Shown piece after piece: positions 107 through 21,954 of a stretch of 34,571 nt of DNA. The position numbers were made by a program, and so were the translations under genes. Within the stretch, counting starts at the first letter, position 1. Each line of letters begins with the position of its first letter. The notes under the pieces were generated by a model. It did no database searches. It was not told the origin of the DNA and saw nothing but the letters and a program-made list of their open reading frames with translations. The DNA is from Alphaproteobacteria bacterium (GTDB lineage: Bacteria; Pseudomonadota; Alphaproteobacteria; Rhodobacterales; Rhodobacteraceae), in NCBI GenBank assembly GCA_030429495.1, contig JAUIFH010000014.1, positions 1 through 34,571 of the forward strand. The letters run 5' to 3'.

Positions 107-456
107 GTCTATCTCCGTTAGGTTCGCCCGTTCTACCATCCGCGCTCACACTCTCGGGGTTACTTCACCAATCCCCCGCCGTTCGCGGCATGGGCTTATC
201 TGGCCGTCAAAACGTGGCAGGAGTTGGGCGTTGGTCGTACATTTTATAGTTGCGTTAACTTTTCGAACGCACCCGTATTAACATATTGATTTTAAACAAT
301 AACAATTTCAATCCTGGAGTGATTTTTCCTTGTGCCGTGTTGCCGAAAGTCCGAATCGGCGGGGAAAGCGAAGGCCGTTCAGCCGGAAAAGCTGGCTCTT
401 AGGTGCGTTTTCTGAGAGAAAAGCCGCAAGGAAAAAGAACAGGCAGGACAGGCAGA
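107..456. other. Divergent intergenic region, AT-rich core
   Basis: About 350 bases separate the pilin gene (minus) from the transglycosylase gene (plus). The stretch around 240-310 is clearly richer in A and T than the rest of the window and contains three TTAA tetramers. It probably holds the promoters of both flanking genes. On the minus strand TATAAA (plus 243-248) is a possible -10 for the pilin, but no convincing -35 goes with it. I see no convincing protein gene here. Confidence 0.5.
244..259. promoter_or_regulatory. Candidate CtrA box upstream of the pilin gene
   Basis: TTAT-N7-TTAAC matches the CtrA consensus TTAA-N7-TTAAC at all but one core base, with the correct 11-base periodicity. 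It lies about 140 bases upstream of the Flp-type pilin start. CtrA is known to control pilus genes in Caulobacter. The region is AT-rich, which raises the chance of a random match. Confidence 0.35.
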
Positions 457-1317
457 ATGGTGCGGGCCCCCGGACTGGCACTTTGTTTCGGCGCTGCGCT
501 GGCGCTGGCGGGTTCCGTTGCGGCCGAGACCGGGACGGGCGGCTACCGGGATTTCACGTTCAAGATGATCAGTGTGCCGAAGACCGGTCAGGCCGGTCGC
601 ATAACGGTACAGATCGATCCCGAGGAGCAGGCTGAAAGGTTGGCCACCGGGGCGCTGCCGCCGGCGGAGAACCCGATCCCGCGGGGCGGTGCCGCGCCCG
701 GGTTGAAGCCCCCGGCACCGGCTGGGCCGGGCGCCTACGACTGGTACTGGACGGCCGTCTCGCCCGCGCTGGGCGAAGGCCCCGACCGTTTCGACAAGGC
801 GATCGTGGCACTTAGTCAGGGGCCTGAGGGCACGGCGGTCAACGCCCCGCGCCTGCAGCATCTTCAGAACATCGCGTCGGCACATGGCGCTGAAATCCTC
901 AAGGCGACGGTTGGCACCGATGTGTCGCCGGCGCTCGTTCTCGCCGTCATCGGGATCGAAAGCGCCGGCCGGACCGATGCGGTGTCGTCCGCCGGCGCCG
1001 TCGGGCTGATGCAGCTCATCCCGGCGACCGCATCCCGTTTCGGCGTGTCCGACAGCAATGATCCGACCCAGAACATCCGGGGCGGCGTCGCCTATCTCGA
1101 CTGGCTGATGAAGGAATTCAACCGCGATCCGCTGATGGTCCTGGCGGCCTACAATGCTGGCGAAAACGCGGTGAAGGAAAACGGCGGCGTGCCGCCCTAT
1201 GCCGAGACGCGTGCCTACGTTCCAAAGGTTCTGGCGGCCTGGAGCGTGGCGCGCGGGCTGTGCGTGACGCCCCCGCAACTTGTGACCGACGGCTGCGTGT
1301 TCGTCGCGAATGGATGA
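457..1317 (+). CDS. Lytic transglycosylase, SLT domain, exported
   Basis: The protein has 286 residues. An N-terminal signal peptide (MVRAPGLALCFGAALALAGSVAAE) is followed by a Pro/Ala-rich linker and a C-terminal goose-type lysozyme-like SLT domain. The domain shows the catalytic Glu in IGIESAGRTDAVSSAGAVGL, then MQLIPATASRFGV, and AYNAGENAV, all hallmarks of soluble lytic transglycosylases. These cleave the MurNAc-GlcNAc bond of peptidoglycan in the periplasm and leave anhydromuramyl ends. The ATG at 457 is preferred over the in-frame GTG at 403 because it follows AGGA (445-448) at good spacing and starts the signal peptide directly. Its 3' end overlaps or abuts the HAD-UbiA gene, so the two are probably cotranscribed. 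Confidence 0.9.
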   Translation: MVRAPGLALCFGAALALAGSVAAETGTGGYRDFTFKMISVPKTGQAGRITVQIDPEEQAERLATGALPPAENPIPRGGAAPGLKPPAPAGPGAYDWYWTAVSPALGEGPDRFDKAIVALSQGPEGTAVNAPRLQHLQNIASAHGAEILKATVGTDVSPALVLAVIGIESAGRTDAVSSAGAVGLMQLIPATASRFGVSDSNDPTQNIRGGVAYLDWLMKEFNRDPLMVLAAYNAGENAVKENGGVPPYAETRAYVPKVLAAWSVARGLCVTPPQLVTDGCVFVANG

Positions 1318-2761
1318 GTTTGCCGAAATGACCGATGTGAAGCCGCTGGTTCTCGACGTGGATGGCACGTTCCTGAAGACCGACATGTTGCTTGAGAATT
1401 TCTGGGCCGGGCTTGGCCGCGATCCGCTGGCGACACTCGGCGTGGCGGTGCGGTACTTCCGCGAACCGGCGCGGCTCAAGGCCGAACTCGCGGCGATCGC
1501 GCCGATCCGGACCGATCTTCTGCCGGTCAATCCCGAGATCGCCGATCTTGCTCTTCGTTCGCGGGTGGCCGGACGCGAGGTGGTGTTTGCCTCTGCCTCT
1601 GACCGCGGTCTCGTTGAACGGCTTGCGGCCGATTATGGTCTGTCAGAGCGGGTCTTCGCCTCGGACGGGACCCACAACCTCAAGGGTACTGCGAAGGCCG
1701 AAGCGCTGGTCGAGGCCTATGGCGAGGGCGGGTTCGATTATGCCGGTGATTCCGATGCCGACATGCCGGTCTGGGAACGTGCGGAGAACGCGCTCGTGGT
1801 CGGGCGTGTATCGGCCGCCCGGACGCTCACCGCGCGCGGCCACAATGCCGTGGAAATCCCCGGCGGCTGGAACTGGCGTGCGCTTCTCAAGGCGCTCAGA
1901 CCGCACCAATGGGTCAAGAATATCCTTCTCCTGCTCGCAATGATTGCGTCGCACCGGTTCGACCTGGAGACCATCGTCCCGATCCTTTGGGGGATCGTTG
2001 CGTTCTCTGCTGCGGCTTCGTCGATCTATATCGTCAATGATCTGCTCGACCTTGAGGCGGACCGCCTGCATCCGACGAAATGCCGCCGTCCTTTCGCGAG
2101 CGGCGACGTGCCGATCACCGTGGGAATGGCGGCCTGTGCAGCGTTGGCGGTGATCGCGCTCGGTGTCGCCGCCGCGCTCAACCCGGCCTTCTTCGGGATC
2201 GTCGTGCTCTACATGGTCACGTCGCTGGCTTACTCGTTGAAGTTGAAACGGATGCGCTGGGTCGACATCGCCACCCTGGCGGGCCTTTACACGATCCGCG
2301 TCGTCGCCGGCGCCGCGGCGGGGCAGGTCGACGTCTCGATTTACATGCTGATCTTCATATTCCCGATCTTCGTCACGCTCGGCTGCGTTAAGCGGCTGAC
2401 CGAACTGACCCTCGCCACCTCGGACGAACGCCTGCCGGGCCGGGGTTACGGGCGGCCCGACCGGGGCGACCTTCTCAACGTCGCGGGGCTCGGCACGGTC
2501 GGCGCGCTCCTCATCTTCTTCCTCTATTCGATCAGCGACCAAGGGAAGGAGCTTTACCCCGCGACGTGGATTCTCTGGATTGCGATGATCCCGATGGGCC
2601 TTTGGCTGGTGCGGATGGTCCTACTGGGCTGGTATGGGAAACAGGACTACGACCCGATCGTGTTCGCGATGCGCGACAAGTTCGGAATCGGAATCCTGAT
2701 GATCACGCTTTCCCTGATGTTCTGGGCGTCCGGCCTGTGGTCGCAGTGGTTTGGCGGCTAG
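1310..2761 (+). CDS. HAD phosphatase-UbiA prenyltransferase fusion (DPPR synthase-like)
   Basis: The 483-residue protein has two parts. Residues 1 to about 185 form a HAD hydrolase with DVDGT (16-20), the Ser motif SASDRG, a conserved Lys region (KGTAKAEAL) and the acidic motif YAGDSDAD. From about 190 it is a polytopic UbiA-family membrane protein with the first Asp-rich motif NDLLDLEADRLHPTKCRRP (from 243), the second region YSLKLKRMRWVDIA, and a DYDPIVFAMRDK tail. The NDxxDxExDRxHPTKxxRP form and the DPxVFAxRD tail resemble the mycobacterial decaprenyl-phosphate phosphoribosyltransferase Rv3806c more than heme or quinone prenyltransferases. I infer transfer of phosphoribose from PRPP to a polyprenyl phosphate, with the fused HAD removing the 5'-phosphate. 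ATG 1310 overlaps the upstream gene by 8 bases; ATG 1328 is an alternative start. Confidence 0.82.
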   Translation: MDEFAEMTDVKPLVLDVDGTFLKTDMLLENFWAGLGRDPLATLGVAVRYFREPARLKAELAAIAPIRTDLLPVNPEIADLALRSRVAGREVVFASASDRGLVERLAADYGLSERVFASDGTHNLKGTAKAEALVEAYGEGGFDYAGDSDADMPVWERAENALVVGRVSAARTLTARGHNAVEIPGGWNWRALLKALRPHQWVKNILLLLAMIASHRFDLETIVPILWGIVAFSAAASSIYIVNDLLDLEADRLHPTKCRRPFASGDVPITVGMAACAALAVIALGVAAALNPAFFGIVVLYMVTSLAYSLKLKRMRWVDIATLAGLYTIRVVAGAAAGQVDVSIYMLIFIFPIFVTLGCVKRLTELTLATSDERLPGRGYGRPDRGDLLNVAGLGTVGALLIFFLYSISDQGKELYPATWILWIAMIPMGLWLVRMVLLGWYGKQDYDPIVFAMRDKFGIGILMITLSLMFWASGLWSQWFGG

Positions 2762-6238: not shown

Positions 6239-7000
6239 TCAGTTCCTCAGCCGCCAGCCGGTCCGGAAGATCGCCCAGACTGCCCCGATCCCGAGGGCGA
6301 GGAAGATCGCCACGGCCACAAGCGACATGGCGACCGGCACGTCGGCCTGCCCGAAGAACGACCAGCGGAAGCCCGAGACGAGGTAGAGGACCGGGTTGAA
6401 CTTGGCCACGCCTTCCCAGAAGGGCGGCAGCATGGAGGCGGAATAGAAGGCTCCGCCGAGGAAGACCAGGGGCGTGATCACCATCAGTGGAATGAACTGC
6501 AACTGCTGCCAGTCCTTTGCCCAGATGCCCATCAGAAAGCCGAAAAGCGAAAAGCTGAAGGCAGTCAGGATCAGGAAGGCCAACGCCCAGACCGGGTGCG
6601 CCATGGGAAGGTCCACGAAGAAGAGCGCGGTAAGATAGATCACCAGTGCGATGATCACCGATTTCAACGCGGCCGCCCCGACATAGCCCATCACCACCTC
6701 GATGAAGGACATGGGCGCGGCGAGGATTTCGTACATCGTGCCCACGAATTTCGGCATGAAGATTCCGAAAGAGGCATTGGTGATCGACTGCTGAAGCACG
6801 GTCAGCATGATCAGCCCGGGCACGATGAAGGCGCCGTAGGACACGCCCTCGACCGACTGGATGCGGGTGCCGATGGCGGCGCCGAAGACGACGAAATAGA
6901 GAACGGTCGAGACGACCGGCGAGGCGAGCGACTCCCAGGGCGTGCGCCAGAACCGCGCCATTTCGTGGGAAAAGATCGTGCGAACGGCCTGCCAGTTCAT
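6239..7000 (-). CDS. ABC-2 type transporter permease
   Basis: The 253-residue protein has about six hydrophobic segments and the ABC-2 permease layout of the YadH/NodJ type: an N-terminal amphipathic region ([31 protein letters not shown]), the loop [28 protein letters not shown], and the end-loop [37 protein letters not shown]. Its start overlaps the ATPase gene stop by four bases, so the two form a translationally coupled exporter. The substrate cannot be inferred. Confidence 0.92.
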
Positions 7001-7923
7001 ACCTTTTCCTCCAACAGCCGCAGGAAGACCTCCTCAAGCGAGGATTGTTCGGTGACGATGTCGCGCACGGCGATCCCTTCGCCCGCGAACCCCGCCAGAA
7101 GCCGGGCGATCCCGCTGCGGTCGGCGCGGGTGTCGTAGTCGTAGCGCACGTGGCGACCGTCCCCCAACAGCGCCACCCCTTCGCCCGCGAGCGTCGCGGG
7201 CAGGACGGTTAGCGGCTCGGCCAGTTCGACCGTCAGCCGCTTGCGGCCAAACTCGTGCATCAGCTTCGCCGTTTCCTCGACCAGCATCAGCCGGCCCTTG
7301 TCGATGATGCCGATCCGGTCGGCCATTTCCTCGGCCTCTTCAAGGTAGTGCGTCGTCAGGATGATCGTGACGCCCTCTTCGCGCAGGCGCCGAACGACCG
7401 CCCACATCTCTCGCCTGAGGTTCACGTCCACCCCGGCGGTGGGTTCGTCGAGGAATAGCACCTTCGGCCCGTGCGACAGAGCCTTGGCGATCAGCACCCG
7501 CCGCTTCATGCCGCCGGACAGTTCCATCAGCTTGGCGTCCCGCTTGTCATGAAGCGACAGCGCCTTCAGCACGCCTTCCAGATGGGCGTCGTCGGGCGCC
7601 TTGCCGTAAAGGCCGCGACTGAAGCGGACGGTGCCGATCACCGTCTCGAACATCTCGATTGAAATCTCCTGCGGCACGAGACCGATCAGCGACCGCGCTG
7701 CCCGGTAGTCGCGAATGATGTCGTTGCCGCCGACACGAACGGTACCGCCCGTCGGCGTGACCAGACCGCAGAGGATCGAGATGAAGGTGGTCTTGCCCGC
7801 GCCGTTCGGACCGAGAAGCGCGAGGATCTCTCCTTCGCGGATATCGAGCGTCACGCCCGAAAGCGCGGCCGTGCCGCTCGCATAGGTCTTCGAGAGGTCG
7901 CTGACCTCGATGATCGGGCGCAT
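6997..7923 (-). CDS. ABC transporter ATP-binding protein (YadG-like)
   Basis: The 308-residue ATPase has Walker [11 protein letters not shown]-loop VPQE, signature LSGGMKRR, Walker [13 protein letters not shown] and the switch His in [16 protein letters not shown]-terminal extension of about 80 residues ([19 protein letters not shown] ... [10 protein letters not shown]) is typical of DrrA/YadG/NodI-type exporters. It pairs with the overlapping permease gene. The ATG at 7921-7923 follows a GGAGTG-type site. Substrate unknown. Confidence 0.94.
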
Positions 7924-16586: not shown

Positions 16587-17324
16587 TCAGATCTTCATCT
16601 TCTTGAAGATCGGCTCGGGGATGTGGCGAATGATCAGCATGATGTAGCGCCAGAAGAACGGCGTGTAGATAGTGTTCCGGCGTTTCTTCACCGCTTTCAG
16701 GATGTCGCCCGCGACGGCCTCGGGCGTCGCGACGAGGAACATGCCCGGCAGCCCCCAGGTCATTGCCGTGTCGACGAAGCCCGGCTTGACGGTCACCACA
16801 TGCCCGCCGGCGCGGGTAAGGCGGTTGCGCAGGCCCGAGAGATAGGTCGCGAACCCGGCCTTGGCGGATCCATAGACGTAGTTGCCGATCCGGCCCCGGT
16901 CACCGGCGACCGAGGCGACGCCGACAACGGTGCCGCCGCCGCGCGCCTCCATCACGGGCGCAAGCATCTGGAGGAAGCGGGCAGGCCCGGTGTGGCTGTC
17001 GGTAACGACCCCGTCGATCAGCGCGGGATCGGCGTCGATCGCGGCCTGCTCGGGCATGGAGCCGACAAAGACGGCGGCGTTGATCTCGCCTTCCTCGGCC
17101 TCCAGCCGTTCCAAGAGGGCCGCGAAGCCTTCGGGTTTGCGGGCATCGAACTGGGCGGTTTCGGCGAAACGGGCGCCGCGCAGGGCGCAGTCGCCGGCAA
17201 GCGCGGCGAGGTCCTCGTCGTCGCGTCCGGCAAGCAGGACACCCGCGCCTTCAGCGGACACCGCGCGGGCGAAGGCGCGTGCCATGGCCGAGGTCGCGCC
17301 GAGGATGATCCAGGTGGAATTCAT
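16587..17324 (-). CDS. DprE2-like SDR reductase
   Basis: The 245-residue short-chain dehydrogenase has the nucleotide-binding GATSAMA motif near residue 9, Ser138 in GVASVAGDRGRIGNYVYGSAKA, and Tyr151-x3-Lys155. The form GDRGRxxNYVYGSAKAG resembles mycobacterial DprE2 (Rv3791), which reduces the 2'-keto intermediate made by DprE1 to decaprenylphosphoryl-arabinose. Its start overlaps the stop of the DprE1-like gene by four bases, giving the same coupled E1-E2 order as in mycobacteria. The C-terminal hydrophobic, basic tail (FFWRYIMLIIRHIPEPIFKKMKI) suggests membrane association. Substrate is inferred from family and context. Confidence 0.85.
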   Translation of the reverse strand: MNSTWIILGATSAMARAFARAVSAEGAGVLLAGRDDEDLAALAGDCALRGARFAETAQFDARKPEGFAALLERLEAEEGEINAAVFVGSMPEQAAIDADPALIDGVVTDSHTGPARFLQMLAPVMEARGGGTVVGVASVAGDRGRIGNYVYGSAKAGFATYLSGLRNRLTRAGGHVVTVKPGFVDTAMTWGLPGMFLVATPEAVAGDILKAVKKRRNTIYTPFFWRYIMLIIRHIPEPIFKKMKI

Positions 17325-18634
17325 GACGCGCTCCTAAGGCTGAGGCGGCGGACAAGGTCGGTCGCGAGCGTGCCGTCGGGATCGGCCTTGGCGACTTCAC
17401 GCTGCCAGTCGGCGATCTCGGGATACATGGAGACGATCTCGGACCCGGTGGCGAGGCCGTCCTTGGCGAAATAGATGCGCCCGCCAGCATCGGCGGCCTT
17501 GGCCTCAAGGCGCCGGATCAGCTCCCGCGCGGCGGCGCGGTTCGGGAAATCGACCGCAAGCGTATAGCCTTCCATCGGGAAGCTCATGTAACCCGCGCGG
17601 CCCGAGCCCATGCGTTTCAGCACCGCGAGCGGTGAGGCGAGGCCAGAGCCCGCGATCAGGTCCAACATGTCACGCAGAGCCGGTGCGGAGGCCAGCGGCA
17701 CGACGCATTGGAACTGGTGGAAGCCGCGCTTGCCGTATAGGCGGTTCCAGTCGTGGATCTTGTCGAGCGGGAAGAAGAAGTCCGAGATCGGCTTGACGAC
17801 CGTCCGCCCTGTATCAGGCACGCGGCGGTAATAGGCGTTGTTGAACATCCGCACGACCGGCCCCGACAGCGCGAATTTCGGCGCGTCGAACGGCACCTTG
17901 CGGTATTTCACCCGCTTGGGGATCAGGCCCGAGCCGGTCTCTCCCTCTTCAAGGATGCCACGCCCGAGTGCGGCGCCCGTCGCGGTGGCGTCGATCCAGC
18001 CGACCGTGTAGGTCGCCTCGGACGTGTCGAGCCGGGCGAGGAATTCGTCCCAATCCGCGATGCGCCGCTCTGTCACGACCATCACGTCGCCCTTGCAGGC
18101 CAGAAGCTTCAACCGGGCCGAGACGATGACGCCGGTCTGGCCCAGCCCGCCCGCCGTCGCGCGGAAGAGATCCGGGGTCTTCTCTGGCGAGACTTCCACG
18201 ACCCCGTTCGCATTCCGAAGGGTGAGCGAGACGACATGTTCGCAGAACGACCCTGCGTGGTGGTGGTTTTTGCCGTGGACATCCTGCCCGATGCAGCCGC
18301 CGACCGTGGCGAAGCCGGTGCCGGGCATCACGGCTGGCAGCCAGCCCTTGGGGGCGAAGGCGGCAGCAATCTCACCCACACGCGCGCCGGCTTCAACGTC
18401 GAGAATGCCGCTCTTCGGATCGAACGAGAGCATTCGGTCGAGCCGGGTCATGTCGATGGCACGGCCGCCGTCGTTCAGGCAGGCGTCGCCATAGGACCGG
18501 CGCATCCCGATGGCAGGCACGAGGCCGTCCGTCAGGATCGCCTCAAGCGCGCGCCGGCGCTCCGGCCGCGCGATCTCTCCCGTCGCGGTCAGCGCTCGGC
18601 CCCAGCCGGTATAATCAGTCTTCTTCCAGAGCAT
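17321..18634 (-). CDS. DprE1-like FAD-dependent oxidase
   Basis: The 437-residue protein has the PCMH-type FAD domain with MRRSYGDACLNDGG (from 44) and VGGCIGQDVHGKNHHHAGSF (111-130), the HGKNHH form of DprE1. The C-terminal half carries VLKRMGSGRAGYMSFPMEGYTLAVDFP and IYFAKDGLATGSEIVSMYP. Aligned with Mycobacterium tuberculosis DprE1 (from memory), Lys418 corresponds to Lys391 and Cys387 to Ala360; both pairs are 31 residues apart. DprE1 oxidises the 2'-OH of decaprenylphosphoryl-ribose. The gene sits between the flippase-like gene (20-base overlap) and the DprE2-like gene (4-base overlap). Confidence 0.87.
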   Translation of the reverse strand: MLWKKTDYTGWGRALTATGEIARPERRRALEAILTDGLVPAIGMRRSYGDACLNDGGRAIDMTRLDRMLSFDPKSGILDVEAGARVGEIAAAFAPKGWLPAVMPGTGFATVGGCIGQDVHGKNHHHAGSFCEHVVSLTLRNANGVVEVSPEKTPDLFRATAGGLGQTGVIVSARLKLLACKGDVMVVTERRIADWDEFLARLDTSEATYTVGWIDATATGAALGRGILEEGETGSGLIPKRVKYRKVPFDAPKFALSGPVVRMFNNAYYRRVPDTGRTVVKPISDFFFPLDKIHDWNRLYGKRGFHQFQCVVPLASAPALRDMLDLIAGSGLASPLAVLKRMGSGRAGYMSFPMEGYTLAVDFPNRAAARELIRRLEAKAADAGGRIYFAKDGLATGSEIVSMYPEIADWQREVAKADPDGTLATDLVRRLSLRSAS

Positions 18635-19628
18635 CTGCCCCCCTCAGGGAAAGTCTTTCGGCGAACGGGAAGACGGCCATGCCGATCCCGAGTGCGAACC
18701 AGAGCGTTGTGACGCGGATGATCGCGGTGGCGGGGACGGAGACCTCCATCGGCACGCCGTCGAGTGCAAGAAGCGCAATCATCGCCGCCTCTGCCCCGCC
18801 GACGCCGCCGGGCGCGCCGGTCAGGCCGCCGGCCAGTGTCGAGAAGACGAAGATCGCCACGGCTTTCCAGAGCCCTATATCCGCCCCCATCCAGCCGAGC
18901 AGCAGGTGGAACGCGTAACCTTCCGCGAACCATCCCGCGAGGCCGAGGGCGAGCGCGGGCAGCATCGCGGCCGGCGCCGAGAACCGCTCGAGCGAGCGGG
19001 CCGCGGCGCGAAGCTTGCCGAAGAGGCGCGGCATGCGGCCCACGGCGCGGTGGGCGAGCGTCACGATCCCTGCCAGAAGGCGCGGCCGCGTCGCCACGAA
19101 GGCTGCCGCCAGCGCGAGGATCGTCACCGGCACCGCGCCGGAAACGCCGGTTGCCGCGAGCGAGACGGAAAGTCCGAGGATCAGCGCCATCGCGGCGAGG
19201 TCTGAGGCCCGGTCGACAAGGGCGAGCGGGGCTGTCCGTTCGAACGCCCAGCCGGTTTCGCGCTTCAGCCAGCGCATCCGGACCAGTTCGCCGACCCTTC
19301 CCGGCGTCACGACCATCGCGAAACCGCCGAGGAAATGGCGCATGTCCTGCATTGGTGTCGTCGAAAGCCCCAAGCGGCGGGCGAAGAGGTGCCAGCGCAG
19401 CCCACGCAGGAGATAGTTGACGAGCGAAAGCGCGAGAAGCAGGGCGCCCTGCCAGAGCGACAGCCGCAGGATCTGGTCCCGCGTCTCTTCCCATCCGGTC
19501 GCGGCGGCTAGGCCGATCAGTCCCAGAACGAAGAGGGCGATCAGGCCGAGAATGACCATCCGGTCCCGCAACCGCCGCGCGGGCGTTCGGGGGGGAGTCT
19601 TGGGAAGGGGCAACTCGGCGCTCATCAT
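18615..19628 (-). CDS. Flippase-like membrane protein (UPF0104/LPG synthase TM family)
   Basis: The 337-residue polytopic protein has about seven to eight hydrophobic segments. Its LWQGALLLALSLVNYLLRGLRWHLFARRLG, GFAMVVTPGRVGELVRMRWL and STLAGGLTGAPGGVGGAEAAMIALLALDGV motifs are typical of the PF03706 lysylphosphatidylglycerol-synthase TM/AglD-like family, often annotated as flippase-like. No soluble lysyltransferase domain is present. It overlaps the DprE1-like gene by 20 bases, so a role with its lipid-linked sugar product is plausible. Two adjacent ATGs (19628, 19625) are possible starts; the longer form has a weak site. Confidence 0.8.
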   Translation of the reverse strand: MMSAELPLPKTPPRTPARRLRDRMVILGLIALFVLGLIGLAAATGWEETRDQILRLSLWQGALLLALSLVNYLLRGLRWHLFARRLGLSTTPMQDMRHFLGGFAMVVTPGRVGELVRMRWLKRETGWAFERTAPLALVDRASDLAAMALILGLSVSLAATGVSGAVPVTILALAAAFVATRPRLLAGIVTLAHRAVGRMPRLFGKLRAAARSLERFSAPAAMLPALALGLAGWFAEGYAFHLLLGWMGADIGLWKAVAIFVFSTLAGGLTGAPGGVGGAEAAMIALLALDGVPMEVSVPATAIIRVTTLWFALGIGMAVFPFAERLSLRGADALEED

Positions 19629-19699: not shown

Positions 19700-19987
19700 T
19701 CAGACGAACACATCCGCCCATTCCTTATGCCGCTTCGCCATGGATTTGACGAAGGGGCATAGCGCGATCACGGTGAAGCCCTCGGCACGCGCGTCGGCGA
19801 CGAGGCGTTCGACCAGCCGCTTGCCGGTGCCGGTGCCGCGCAGCGCATCGGGCACGCCGGTATGGTCGGCGATGATCCTGGTCGGGCTGACGACCGACCA
19901 GGTAAGTTCCGCTTCGGCGCCCGACTGGGTCAGGACGTAACGACCCTTGCTCGGGCCATTCTCGCGCCGGATCTCGCGATCAGACAA
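19700..19987 (-). CDS. GNAT-family N-acetyltransferase, YidJ/PF14542-like
   Basis: The 95-residue protein reads (M)[82 protein letters not shown] and ends [12 protein letters not shown]. The acetyl-CoA loop is RGTGTGKRL, and [11 protein letters not shown] is typical of this short GNAT family. The best start is TTG at 19987, which overlaps the scoB stop and follows GAGG. It is cotranscribed with scoAB. The substrate is unknown. Confidence 0.8.
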
Positions 19988-20606
19988 TCGTCGCCTCGGT
20001 CGCGGCGCGCATCTCGTCCTCGGTGACACCATCGGCGAGTTCGACGATGTGCAGACCCTTGTGGGTCACATCCAGCACGCCGAGATTGGTGATGATCCGA
20101 TCCACGACCGCCTTGCCCGTCAGCGGCAGCGTGCATTCGCGCAATACCTTGGATTCGCCATGCTTCGACGTGTGGTCCATGACCACGACGACGCGGCCGA
20201 CGCCGGCCACAAGGTCCATCGCGCCGCCCATGCCCTTGACGAGCTTGCCGGGGATCATCCAGTTCGCCAGGTCGCCTTTTTCGGAGACCTCCATCGCGCC
20301 GAGGATCGCCATGGCGATCTTGCCGCCCCGGATCATGCCGAAGCTGGTCGAACTGTCGAAATAAGACGAATGCGGCAGCTCGGTGATGGTCTGCTTGCCG
20401 GCGTTGATCAGGTCGGGGTCTTCATCGCCCTCGTAGGGGAAGGGGCCCATGCCGAGCATTCCGTTTTCGGACTGGAGCGTGACATGCATCCCGTTCGGAA
20501 TGTAGTTCGACACCAGCGTCGGAATGCCGATGCCGAGGTTCACATACATCCCGTCCTTCAGTTCCTGCGCCGCGCGCGCGGCCATCTGATTGCGGTCCCA
20601 CGGCAT
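19980..20606 (-). CDS. scoB: 3-oxoacid CoA-transferase subunit B
   Basis: The 208-residue protein has the class I CoA-transferase beta-subunit signature: [33 protein letters not shown], with the catalytic Glu in SENG, and [22 protein letters not shown]. It transfers CoA from succinyl-CoA (or a similar donor) to acetoacetate or another 3-oxoacid. It sits three bases downstream of subunit A, so both are made together. Substrate preference cannot be read from sequence. Confidence 0.94.
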
Positions 20607-20609
20607 GAT

Positions 20610-21314
20610 TCAGGCCTCCTCACGCTTGCGCACGGTGCGCTGTTCGATCCGTTTCTCGTGCGGGCCGCTGATGATCCGGTGCACATAGATACCGGGCAGG
20701 TGGATCGCATCCGGGTCAAGGCTACCCGGTTCGACGATCTCCTCCACCTCCGCGACACAGACGCGGCCGCACATGCCGGCCGGCACGTTGAAGTTGCGCG
20801 CCGTCTTGCGGAAGACGAGGTTGCCGGTGGTGTCGGCCTTCCAGCCCTTGATGATGGAGAGATCGGCGAAGATGCCGCGTTCGAGGATGTAGGTCTCTCC
20901 GTCGAACTCCTTGTGCTCCTTGCCCTCGGCGATCACCGTACCGACGCCGGTCTTGGTGTAGAAGCCCGGGATGCCGCAGCCGCCGGCGCGCATCCGCTCG
21001 GCCAAAGTACCCTGCGGGTTGAATTCCAGATCCAGCTCGCCCGACAGATACTGCCGCATGAATTCGGCGTTCTCGCCGACATAGGAGGACAGCATCTTCC
21101 TGATCTGTCGGGTGTCGAGCAGCTTGCCGAGGCCGAAGCCGTCCACGCCGCAATTGTTCGAGGCGATGGTCAGGTCCTTCACGCCGCTTTCGACCAGCGC
21201 GTCGATCAGAAGTTCCGGGATGCCGGACAGGCCGAACCCTCCCGCAGCGATGAACATCCCGTCATGAAGGAGGCCGTCGAGGGCCTCCTTCGCCGAGCCG
21301 TAAACCTTTTTCAT
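20610..21314 (-). CDS. scoA: 3-oxoacid CoA-transferase subunit A
   Basis: The 234-residue alpha subunit begins MKKVYGSAKEALDGLLHDGMFIAAGGFGLSGIPELLIDAL and shows IASNNCGVDGFGLGKLL and MRAGGCGIPGFYTKTGVGT, typical of ScoA/AtoD. Together with ScoB it forms the succinyl-CoA:3-ketoacid CoA-transferase used in ketone-body or polyhydroxybutyrate breakdown. The ribosome binding site GGGGAG lies inside a hairpin (21322-21340). Confidence 0.94.
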   Translation of the reverse strand: MKKVYGSAKEALDGLLHDGMFIAAGGFGLSGIPELLIDALVESGVKDLTIASNNCGVDGFGLGKLLDTRQIRKMLSSYVGENAEFMRQYLSGELDLEFNPQGTLAERMRAGGCGIPGFYTKTGVGTVIAEGKEHKEFDGETYILERGIFADLSIIKGWKADTTGNLVFRKTARNFNVPAGMCGRVCVAEVEEIVEPGSLDPDAIHLPGIYVHRIISGPHEKRIEQRTVRKREEA

Positions 21315-21402: not shown

Positions 21403-21954
21403 TCAGATCAGGCGGACCTGGGTGCCGATCGGCGTGACCTCGAACAAAGCCTCTACATTGCTGTTGAAGAGACCGATGCAGCCATCCGACGACCGGCGCC
21501 CGATCTTGCGGGTGTCGTGGGTGCCGTGGATCAGGTAGGCGGGCCAGTCGAAATACATCGCATGCGTGCCAAGCGGGTTGTCCGGCCCCGGCGGCATATA
21601 GCGCCAGTCGGGAAAGCGTTCGCGCTGCGATGCGGTCGGCGTCCAGTCCGGCCCGACCTTTTTGCGCACGATGGTCGTGTAGCCGCGTTTGGTCAGTTCA
21701 TCCGTCCGCGGCACCGAGGTCGGATAGATCCGGTAGTCGGTTCCGTCACCGCTCCAGAAATGCAGCGCGCGCGAAGCGGTGTCGGCGACGATCGCCGCCT
21801 TGCCAAGCTCGCTGAAATGGTCGCGCCAGTCCTGCGCCGCAAAGCTCGACACGTTCCTGCGGGTAAGGTCGTCGGCCCGTACCTGTGCCGGGACCAGCAG
21901 CGCGGCGCTGGCGACGCCCAGAAGGCGGCGCCGGGAAAATGTAACGTTGCTCAT
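21403..21954 (-). CDS. L,D-transpeptidase (YkuD), probably Tat-exported
   Basis: The 183-residue protein starts MSNVTFSRRRLLGVASAALLVPAQVRAD, a twin-arginine type signal. The YkuD domain includes the catalytic region YLIHGTHDTRKIGRRSSDGCIGLFN, with the nucleophile Cys in SDGC. The usual family form is SHGC, so a His is replaced by Asp here. Such enzymes form 3-3 peptidoglycan cross-links or attach proteins to the wall. PPGPDNPLGTHAMYF is a typical substrate-loop region. It lies 123 bases after topA on the same strand. Confidence 0.88.
   Translation of the reverse strand: MSNVTFSRRRLLGVASAALLVPAQVRADDLTRRNVSSFAAQDWRDHFSELGKAAIVADTASRALHFWSGDGTDYRIYPTSVPRTDELTKRGYTTIVRKKVGPDWTPTASQRERFPDWRYMPPGPDNPLGTHAMYFDWPAYLIHGTHDTRKIGRRSSDGCIGLFNSNVEALFEVTPIGTQVRLI

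Follow-up and report, generated by a model that had tools for sequence, protein, structure and literature searches.

The window analysed here is an entire contig of 34,571 bases (JAUIFH010000014.1) from a bacterium of the family Rhodobacteraceae, and we judge it probable that this stretch carries a Gram-negative counterpart of the decaprenylphosphoryl-arabinose pathway known from mycobacteria. Cell-wall D-arabinose is best known as a mycobacterial trait and its synthesis as a drug-target pathway. At the centre of the locus are three intact, overlapping minus-strand genes at 16587-19628 that encode, in order, a PF03706 membrane protein, a DprE1-like oxidase and a DprE2-like reductase; the first two genes share 20 bases and the last two share 4. 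A first-pass annotation of the same DNA had described this trio, and a check of the open reading frames (ORFs) finds its coordinates and gene order correct. It had also placed the operon away from any nod or exopolysaccharide genes, and it overlooked a gene on the same contig, at 1310-2761, that encodes a fusion of HAD and UbiA domains. We reject the idea that the three genes stand alone, since a synthase gene is present in the same window, and this gene turns a suggestive enzyme pair into a near-complete donor pathway.

We propose that the HAD-UbiA protein would combine phosphoribosyl pyrophosphate (PRPP) with polyprenyl phosphate to form polyprenyl-P-ribose and remove its 5'-phosphate, and that, judging by homology, the DprE1-like and DprE2-like enzymes would then invert C2 by oxidation and reduction to yield polyprenyl-phospho-D-arabinofuranose. 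The PF03706 protein would flip this lipid-sugar to the periplasmic face, as its gene position and its exchange with GtrA proteins suggest, and in the periplasm a GT-C enzyme would attach the arabinose to a glycan or a protein of the envelope. Co-occurrence singles out the best transferase candidate in the genome, a GT87 protein encoded between aspS and carB on another contig. The direct evidence for the pathway is gene content, order, conservation and co-occurrence, and the gene set points to a putative arabinose decoration of the cell surface in this bacterium.

Table 1. Genes of the proposed arabinose donor pathway in the window, and the constant neighbor of the synthase gene
Feature	Coordinates	Strand	Remarks
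PF03706 (LPG_synthase_TM, flippase-like) membrane protein	18615..19628	-	337 aa; ATG at 19628, open frame extends to 19721
DprE1-like FAD oxidase	17321..18634	-	437 aa; proposed polyprenyl-phospho-ribose 2'-oxidase
DprE2-like SDR reductase	16587..17324	-	245 aa; proposed to reduce the 2'-keto group, yielding the arabino form
HAD-UbiA fusion (PRK08238)	1310..2761	+	483 aa; proposed polyprenyl-phosphate 5'-phosphoribosyltransferase and 5'-phosphatase
Lytic transglycosylase (SLT)	403..1317	+	PF01464, 93.1 bits; frame overlaps the HAD-UbiA frame

A UbiA search of the organism's own genome gives three matches, one of which falls at window positions 1928-2374, within the HAD-UbiA frame. Over both of its halves (residues 6-473 of 482) the encoded protein matches PRK08238 (NF006088) at 522.5 bits, above the cut-off of 351. 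The HAD half alone is faint in Pfam (20.9 bits vs a cut-off of 27), and the UbiA half is best matched by models of decaprenyl-phosphate phosphoribosyltransferase (PRK12324), whose scores of 148.1, 130.7 and 126.9 bits lie under the models' own cut-offs of 207, 234 and 474 bits; the match to PDB entry 8j8j reaches 106 bits over residues 190-456. The NDxxDxxxD and RxxE motifs and the HAD aspartate are all present, and D15, D17, N242, D243, D246, D250, R361 and E364 (numbering from codon 2) are invariant in the window protein and 24 relatives. These residues correspond to ones tested in ORF15 of Citrobacter youngae (the N, D, D and D of loop II, the R and E of loop IV, and the HAD aspartate), those of loops II and IV with identical spacing. 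ORF15 has the same domain make-up and is described as moving ribose from PRPP onto farnesyl phosphate and then removing the 5'-phosphate (PMC11127046). We propose that the HAD-UbiA protein acts as a polyprenyl-phosphate phosphoribosyltransferase and phosphatase that feeds the oxidase and reductase.

Kinship of these two enzymes with DprE1 and DprE2, already suggested by the first-pass annotation, is supported both by family models and by the best matches among solved structures. The oxidase matches the NCBIfam DprE1 model (NF053785) at 378.3 bits over residues 6-433, with the next family at 55.2, and its best solved structure by sequence is DprE1 4aut, which we take to be the Mycobacterium smegmatis enzyme (261 bits, vs 44 bits for the next enzyme kind). 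For the reductase the top family is PRK07102, of the short-chain dehydrogenase/reductase (SDR) type, at 267.2 bits (0.2 bits above its cut-off of 267); the DprE2 model (NF053786) scores 154.6 bits, with the next family at 116.9, and the best PDB match is DprE2 chain 21gq_C at 93 bits, covering residues 4-244 including the C-terminal stretch, with the next at 54. The protein carries YxxxK at 151-155. We use the labels "DprE1-like" and "DprE2-like" because both proteins fall below the curated cut-offs of those models, 500 bits for DprE1 and 250 bits for DprE2.

In an alignment of 31 oxidase rows, comprising the window protein, 4aut and 29 relatives, Tyr48 (in SYGD), His120 (in HGKNHH) and Lys391 (in AKDSR) align with 4aut and are kept in 29, 30 and 29 rows, respectively; we take their DprE1 counterparts to be active-site or catalytic residues. 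The cysteine of VCVDFP in 4aut, presumably the benzothiazinone target, is alanine in the window oxidase and in 27 of the 31 rows, and the tyrosine of LQYQF is phenylalanine in the window oxidase and in 18. Grouping with unrelated FAD oxidases, which the first-pass annotation had named as grounds for abandoning the assignment, is not seen: the DprE1-model and structure scores stand far above those of other oxidases, and in an unrooted tree the 4aut chain is nested among proteins of our class sample (support 98/90). A second unrooted tree includes two outgroup oxidases; their branches are about 10 changes long, and they do not group together.

The arrangement of the locus is conserved. Oxidase relatives are encoded in 136 genome-contig stretches, and we retained the 80 best. 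In the titles of these 80 appear Rhodobacteraceae, Rhodobacterales, Paracoccaceae, individual genera (Defluviimonas, Rhodobacter and Thioclava, for example), or merely "alphaproteobacterium" or "proteobacterium". The three-gene arrangement is not due to chance, since oxidase and reductase are adjacent in that order in 80/80 of the kept relatives and a PF03706 gene lies upstream of the oxidase in 76. Two of the four others (L023, L090) are contigs that start near the oxidase start, and in the remaining two (L047, L051) no PF03706 gene is found among the upstream ORFs. The HAD-UbiA gene lies within the fetched stretch in 47 of the 80 relatives. In 46 of them it is downstream of the reductase and convergent with it, at a median distance of 69 bases (range 3-1,980); L086 has it upstream, on the same strand. 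The window has the same order and orientation as these relatives, but its two genes are 13.8 kb apart, with the reductase ending at 16587 and the HAD-UbiA gene at 2761; the MeaB, DUF3108 and HrpB genes that follow the reductase here are common to L014-L016 and partly to L012 and L018. Where the HAD-UbiA gene is not nearby (33 loci), 26 genomes carry one elsewhere. Rhodobacter capsulatus DSM 1710 (L076), for instance, combines the three-gene operon with a distant HAD-UbiA gene that scores 524.6 bits. The SLT gene shares a stretch with the HAD-UbiA gene, as the next labelled gene, in 47/47 relatives. Two Defluviimonas genomes (L015, L016) also have a second PRK08238 match elsewhere; it scores about 391 bits, is confined to the UbiA half and lies in frames of 322 and 318 aa. 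On the far side of the operon, a YkuD L,D-transpeptidase gene (PF03734) at window positions 21403-21954 adjoins a 3-oxoacid CoA-transferase pair (19980-21314).

Oxidase and synthase also travel together across genomes. We drew on a class sample of 337 genomes and a family sample of 198 genomes (197 genera) from the Rhodobacteraceae-level family; p values for co-occurrence ignore ancestry throughout. In the class sample the oxidase is found in 39/337 genomes, a PRK08238 match in 67/337 and both in 34 (Fisher p 9e-23), and the latter count stays at 34 when 15 of the 67 PRK08238 matches, judged by hand to arise mainly from the HAD part, are removed. By a hand count from coordinates, about 2 kb or less separates the two genes in 29 of these 34 genomes. 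In the family sample, a synthase is found in 68/73 oxidase-positive vs 15/125 oxidase-negative genomes (p 8e-32).

Several observations weigh against a pathway of this kind. Besides the shortfall of both enzymes against their curated cut-offs, five of the 73 oxidase-positive family genomes have no detected synthase, and seven genomes among the 33 relatives without a nearby HAD-UbiA gene (L049, L059, L066, L072, L077, L079, L091) have no PRK08238 match at 1e-30. Four of these seven, all Silicimonas (L077, L091, L049, L066), retain the PF03706, oxidase and reductase genes without a detected synthase; in them the reductase and SLT genes adjoin each other, and no ORF of at least 100 aa separates them. 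Such synthase-free lineages count against a closed pathway there. Together with the low model scores, they are also what could be said for the genes being relics, or having been redirected to an FAD/SDR reaction unrelated to polyprenyl sugars. We consider this improbable given the intact, overlapping frames, the retained motifs and the strong class-wide linkage to a phosphoribosyltransferase-like gene.

The role of the membrane protein can be approached through what replaces it elsewhere. The protein matches PF03706 at 139.5 bits (cut-off 33.4) and TIGR00374 at 66.3 bits. We surveyed 40 stretches around matches in the class sample, two of them around a synthase only. A PF03706 gene is recognised in four (L095, L100, L122, L132) and a GtrA-like gene in five (L110, L111, L113, L115, L118); none of these nine has both, and neither is recognised in the remaining stretches. 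The usual position of the flippase gene is between synthase and oxidase, with L122 and L115 having it at one end of the group. Pfam, run on one protein of each kind, gives 27.1 bits to PF04138 for L118 (cut-off 26.1) and 144.8 bits to PF03706 for L095. Four plasmid cassettes, hand-picked from 64 records with an oxidase match, have the gene order synthase-GtrA-oxidase-SDR, one of them with an extra gene. At the window locus itself there is no GtrA gene, PF03706 being present instead (this concerns the locus, not the rest of the genome). GtrA has been called a proposed flippase, and the proposed mycobacterial exporter Rv3789 has been likened to GtrA systems (PMC11127046). The first-pass annotation had raised the possibility that the membrane protein is the lipid-sugar flippase, and the occupation of its place by GtrA in other cassettes makes this likely; the GtrA exchange, although indirect, is the best evidence that the PF03706 protein is a polyprenyl-phosphate-pentose flippase.

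An alternative, to which we give roughly one chance in several, is that the PF03706 protein moves some other lipid and that its linkage to the arabinose genes is only historical. The names of models for PF03706 relatives refer to aminoacyl- or glucosaminyl-phosphatidylglycerol, and two such relatives, MprF and the GlcN-PG flippase, are phospholipid flippases, which speaks against an arabinolipid cargo. PF03706 also persists in the lineages without synthase, and in L047 and L051 the oxidase and reductase genes have no PF03706 gene upstream. This alternative would have to accommodate both the overlapping operon in the window, with its counterparts in 76/80 relatives, and the presence in cassettes of other families of either PF03706 or GtrA, with both in none of the nine. 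We favor transport of the polyprenyl-phosphate-pentose.

No transferase is recognised in the window: a scan of its proteins, which covered part of its ORFs and used no GT136 model, gave no match to a GT-C or MATE family. The genome search for a GT-C arabinosyltransferase that the first-pass annotation had called for returned three PMT_2 and two GT87 (PF09594) matches; GT87 is listed within the GT-C clan (PMC7801869). The stronger GT87 match, at 83.2 bits, is the one between aspS and carB, and the other (26.8 bits, cut-off 25) lies beside lepA, these neighbors being named by eye from translations. Across the family sample, PF09594 is found at 1e-8 in 45/198 genomes, of which 39 have the oxidase (p 4e-15; base rate 73/198) and 43 the synthase (p 6e-18); put differently, it is present in 39/73 oxidase-positive vs 6/125 oxidase-negative genomes. 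When the aspS-carB protein is the query, 35 of 37 matching genomes have the oxidase (p 3e-16). Counting either GT87 search, the association extends to genomes with a distant type of oxidase (at most 48% identical), 7/20 of which have GT87 vs 6/125 (p 0.0003). GT87 genes also lie in or beside five cassettes: L106 (Pfam, 124 bits), L124 (by similarity to L106), L156, in the order synthase-GtrA-oxidase-reductase-GT87, and L164 and L165, where they are known from annotation. Among 14 control genomes PF09594 exceeds its cut-off in one, Corynebacterium glutamicum; we take AftC to be a GT87 enzyme. The surroundings of GT87 give no hint of the acceptor, because a carB-like family (named by eye) recurs as a neighbor, in 12/25 stretches around relatives' GT87 genes, four of those stretches not being GT87a neighborhoods.

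Here too some results pull the other way. PMT_2, used as a control, is present in 79/198 genomes, 36 of them with oxidase (36/73 vs 43/125; p 0.03) and 45 with synthase (p 0.0004); some of the GT87 signal may therefore be general. No PF09594 match at 1e-8 is found in 34/73 oxidase-positive genomes, and when the GT87 of the own genome is compared by phmmer with the five from cassettes, nothing matches at 1e-3, which suggests that it may belong to a different subfamily. Alternatively, a donor may be made and used by something else, either a Pfam-less multi-span protein or a PMT_2-type GT-C enzyme, or the final sugar may not be arabinose; we regard this as a minority possibility, if a substantial one. 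Ten multi-span proteins were picked from the vicinity of cassettes, and eight of them (those of L118, L111, L113, L099, L098, L105, L132 and L133; 497-574 aa) have no Pfam match at 1e-3. Such proteins also occur as tandem paralogues in two plasmid cassettes, two copies in one and three in the other, and the own genome has three PMT_2 proteins, a family mildly associated with the synthase. GT87 is nevertheless tied more closely than PMT_2 to both oxidase (39/45 vs 36/79) and synthase (43/45 vs 45/79), and the five cassettes place it in or beside the pathway genes, so that a GT87 enzyme remains our preferred candidate.

The tandem paralogues lie at 10236-13369 in L164 (a Rhizobium laguerreae plasmid; two copies) and at 9978-14694 in L165 (a Paracoccus plasmid; three copies). 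They are 503-549 aa long, are annotated as hypothetical, have 6-9 spans by hydropathy count, and are possibly an unnamed GT-C family. In the own genome, contig 23 (L092, 308-3457) holds a GT2 protein, a PMT_2-type GT-C protein and a PAP2-like protein together, resembling by eye a hexose-type lipid-donor system; we set this PMT_2 protein aside as an arabinose transferase, given its own GT2 and PAP2-like neighbors and the weak tie of PMT_2 to the oxidase.

More tentatively, and with rather less than even confidence, we suggest that Rhodobacteraceae with this locus place D-arabinofuranose on a conserved envelope component, rather than on a variable O-antigen, a pilus encoded on an island or a Nod factor, by way of a PF03706 flippase and a stand-alone GT87 enzyme. 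The overlap of the SLT frame with the synthase gene would be a hint that the acceptor is linked to murein or processed with it. If the proposed pathway operates, it would constitute a second natural setting for the D-arabinose donor pathway, kept in near-complete form by roughly one in three genomes of the family sample (73/198 with oxidase, 68 of them with synthase). It would also open the pathway to study in hosts with convenient genetics, among them Rhodobacter capsulatus, add a cargo to those of PF03706 flippases and put forward a GT87 protein as candidate arabinosyltransferase, and it makes directly testable the question of which cell component bears arabinose.

The proposed steps parallel those of the mycobacterial and corynebacterial pathway, which comprises Rv3806c, Rv3807c, DprE1, DprE2 and Rv3789 (steps per PMC11127046): a UbiA-type phosphoribosyltransferase, dephosphorylation, DprE1/DprE2-type epimerisation and export. 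Unlike in mycobacteria, the synthase here carries its phosphatase as a fused HAD domain, a PF03706 protein occupies the place of an Rv3789-like one, and the host is Gram-negative. The first-pass annotation had compared the locus with the rhizobial noe genes, of which noeCHOP and noeCNHOP of Azorhizobium and Rhizobium sp. IRBG74 are in print as directing D-arabinofuranosylation with mycobacterium-like precursor genes (PMC2443382, PMC5080398); the comparison is too narrow in that pilin and three-component systems have also been published. The noe systems share with our locus an alphaproteobacterial host and, as proposed, the same kind of donor. The noe systems are coupled to nod genes and act on Nod factors, whereas no nod gene is found above cut-off among the window proteins scanned; NodI and NodJ models match the ABC transporter at 6242-7923 far under their cut-offs (this search covered window proteins, not the genome). 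The earlier statement that the operon is not near nod or exopolysaccharide genes fits the scanned proteins, which represent part of the window's ORFs, and misses the HAD-UbiA gene.

Gram-negative precedents exist. The type IV pilin system of Pseudomonas paraeruginosa (PSPA7_6245-6251, TfpW; PMC12369383) resembles ours in having D-arabinofuranose (D-Araf) biosynthesis genes including ubiA, a GT-C transferase and a Gram-negative host; it differs in lying on a genomic island and in its pilin acceptor. Kelly et al. (2024) describe a three-component pentofuranose pathway in Gram-negatives that they call widespread, and candidate systems for Araf-containing glycans that hold DprE1/E2 homologues (PMC11127046). 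A literature search, outside of which most subscription journals lie, returned no account of a Rhodobacteraceae locus, of PF03706 beside DprE1/E2 or of a GT87 transferase for such a locus. The three-component system of Citrobacter youngae O1/O2 shares the HAD-UbiA synthase, in identical domain order. It is described as having a MATE flippase, a GT136 transferase and an O-antigen locus, whereas the locus here has PF03706 and a GT87 candidate on another contig, with neither MATE nor GT-C among the neighbors scanned. The plasmid cassettes of Ruegeria, Cereibacter, Rhizobium laguerreae and Paracoccus sp. AK26 have the same enzymes gathered into one gene group (UbiA, GtrA, FAD oxidase and SDR), with GtrA replacing PF03706, GT87 annotated beside two of them, and oxidases 39-42% identical to that of the window.

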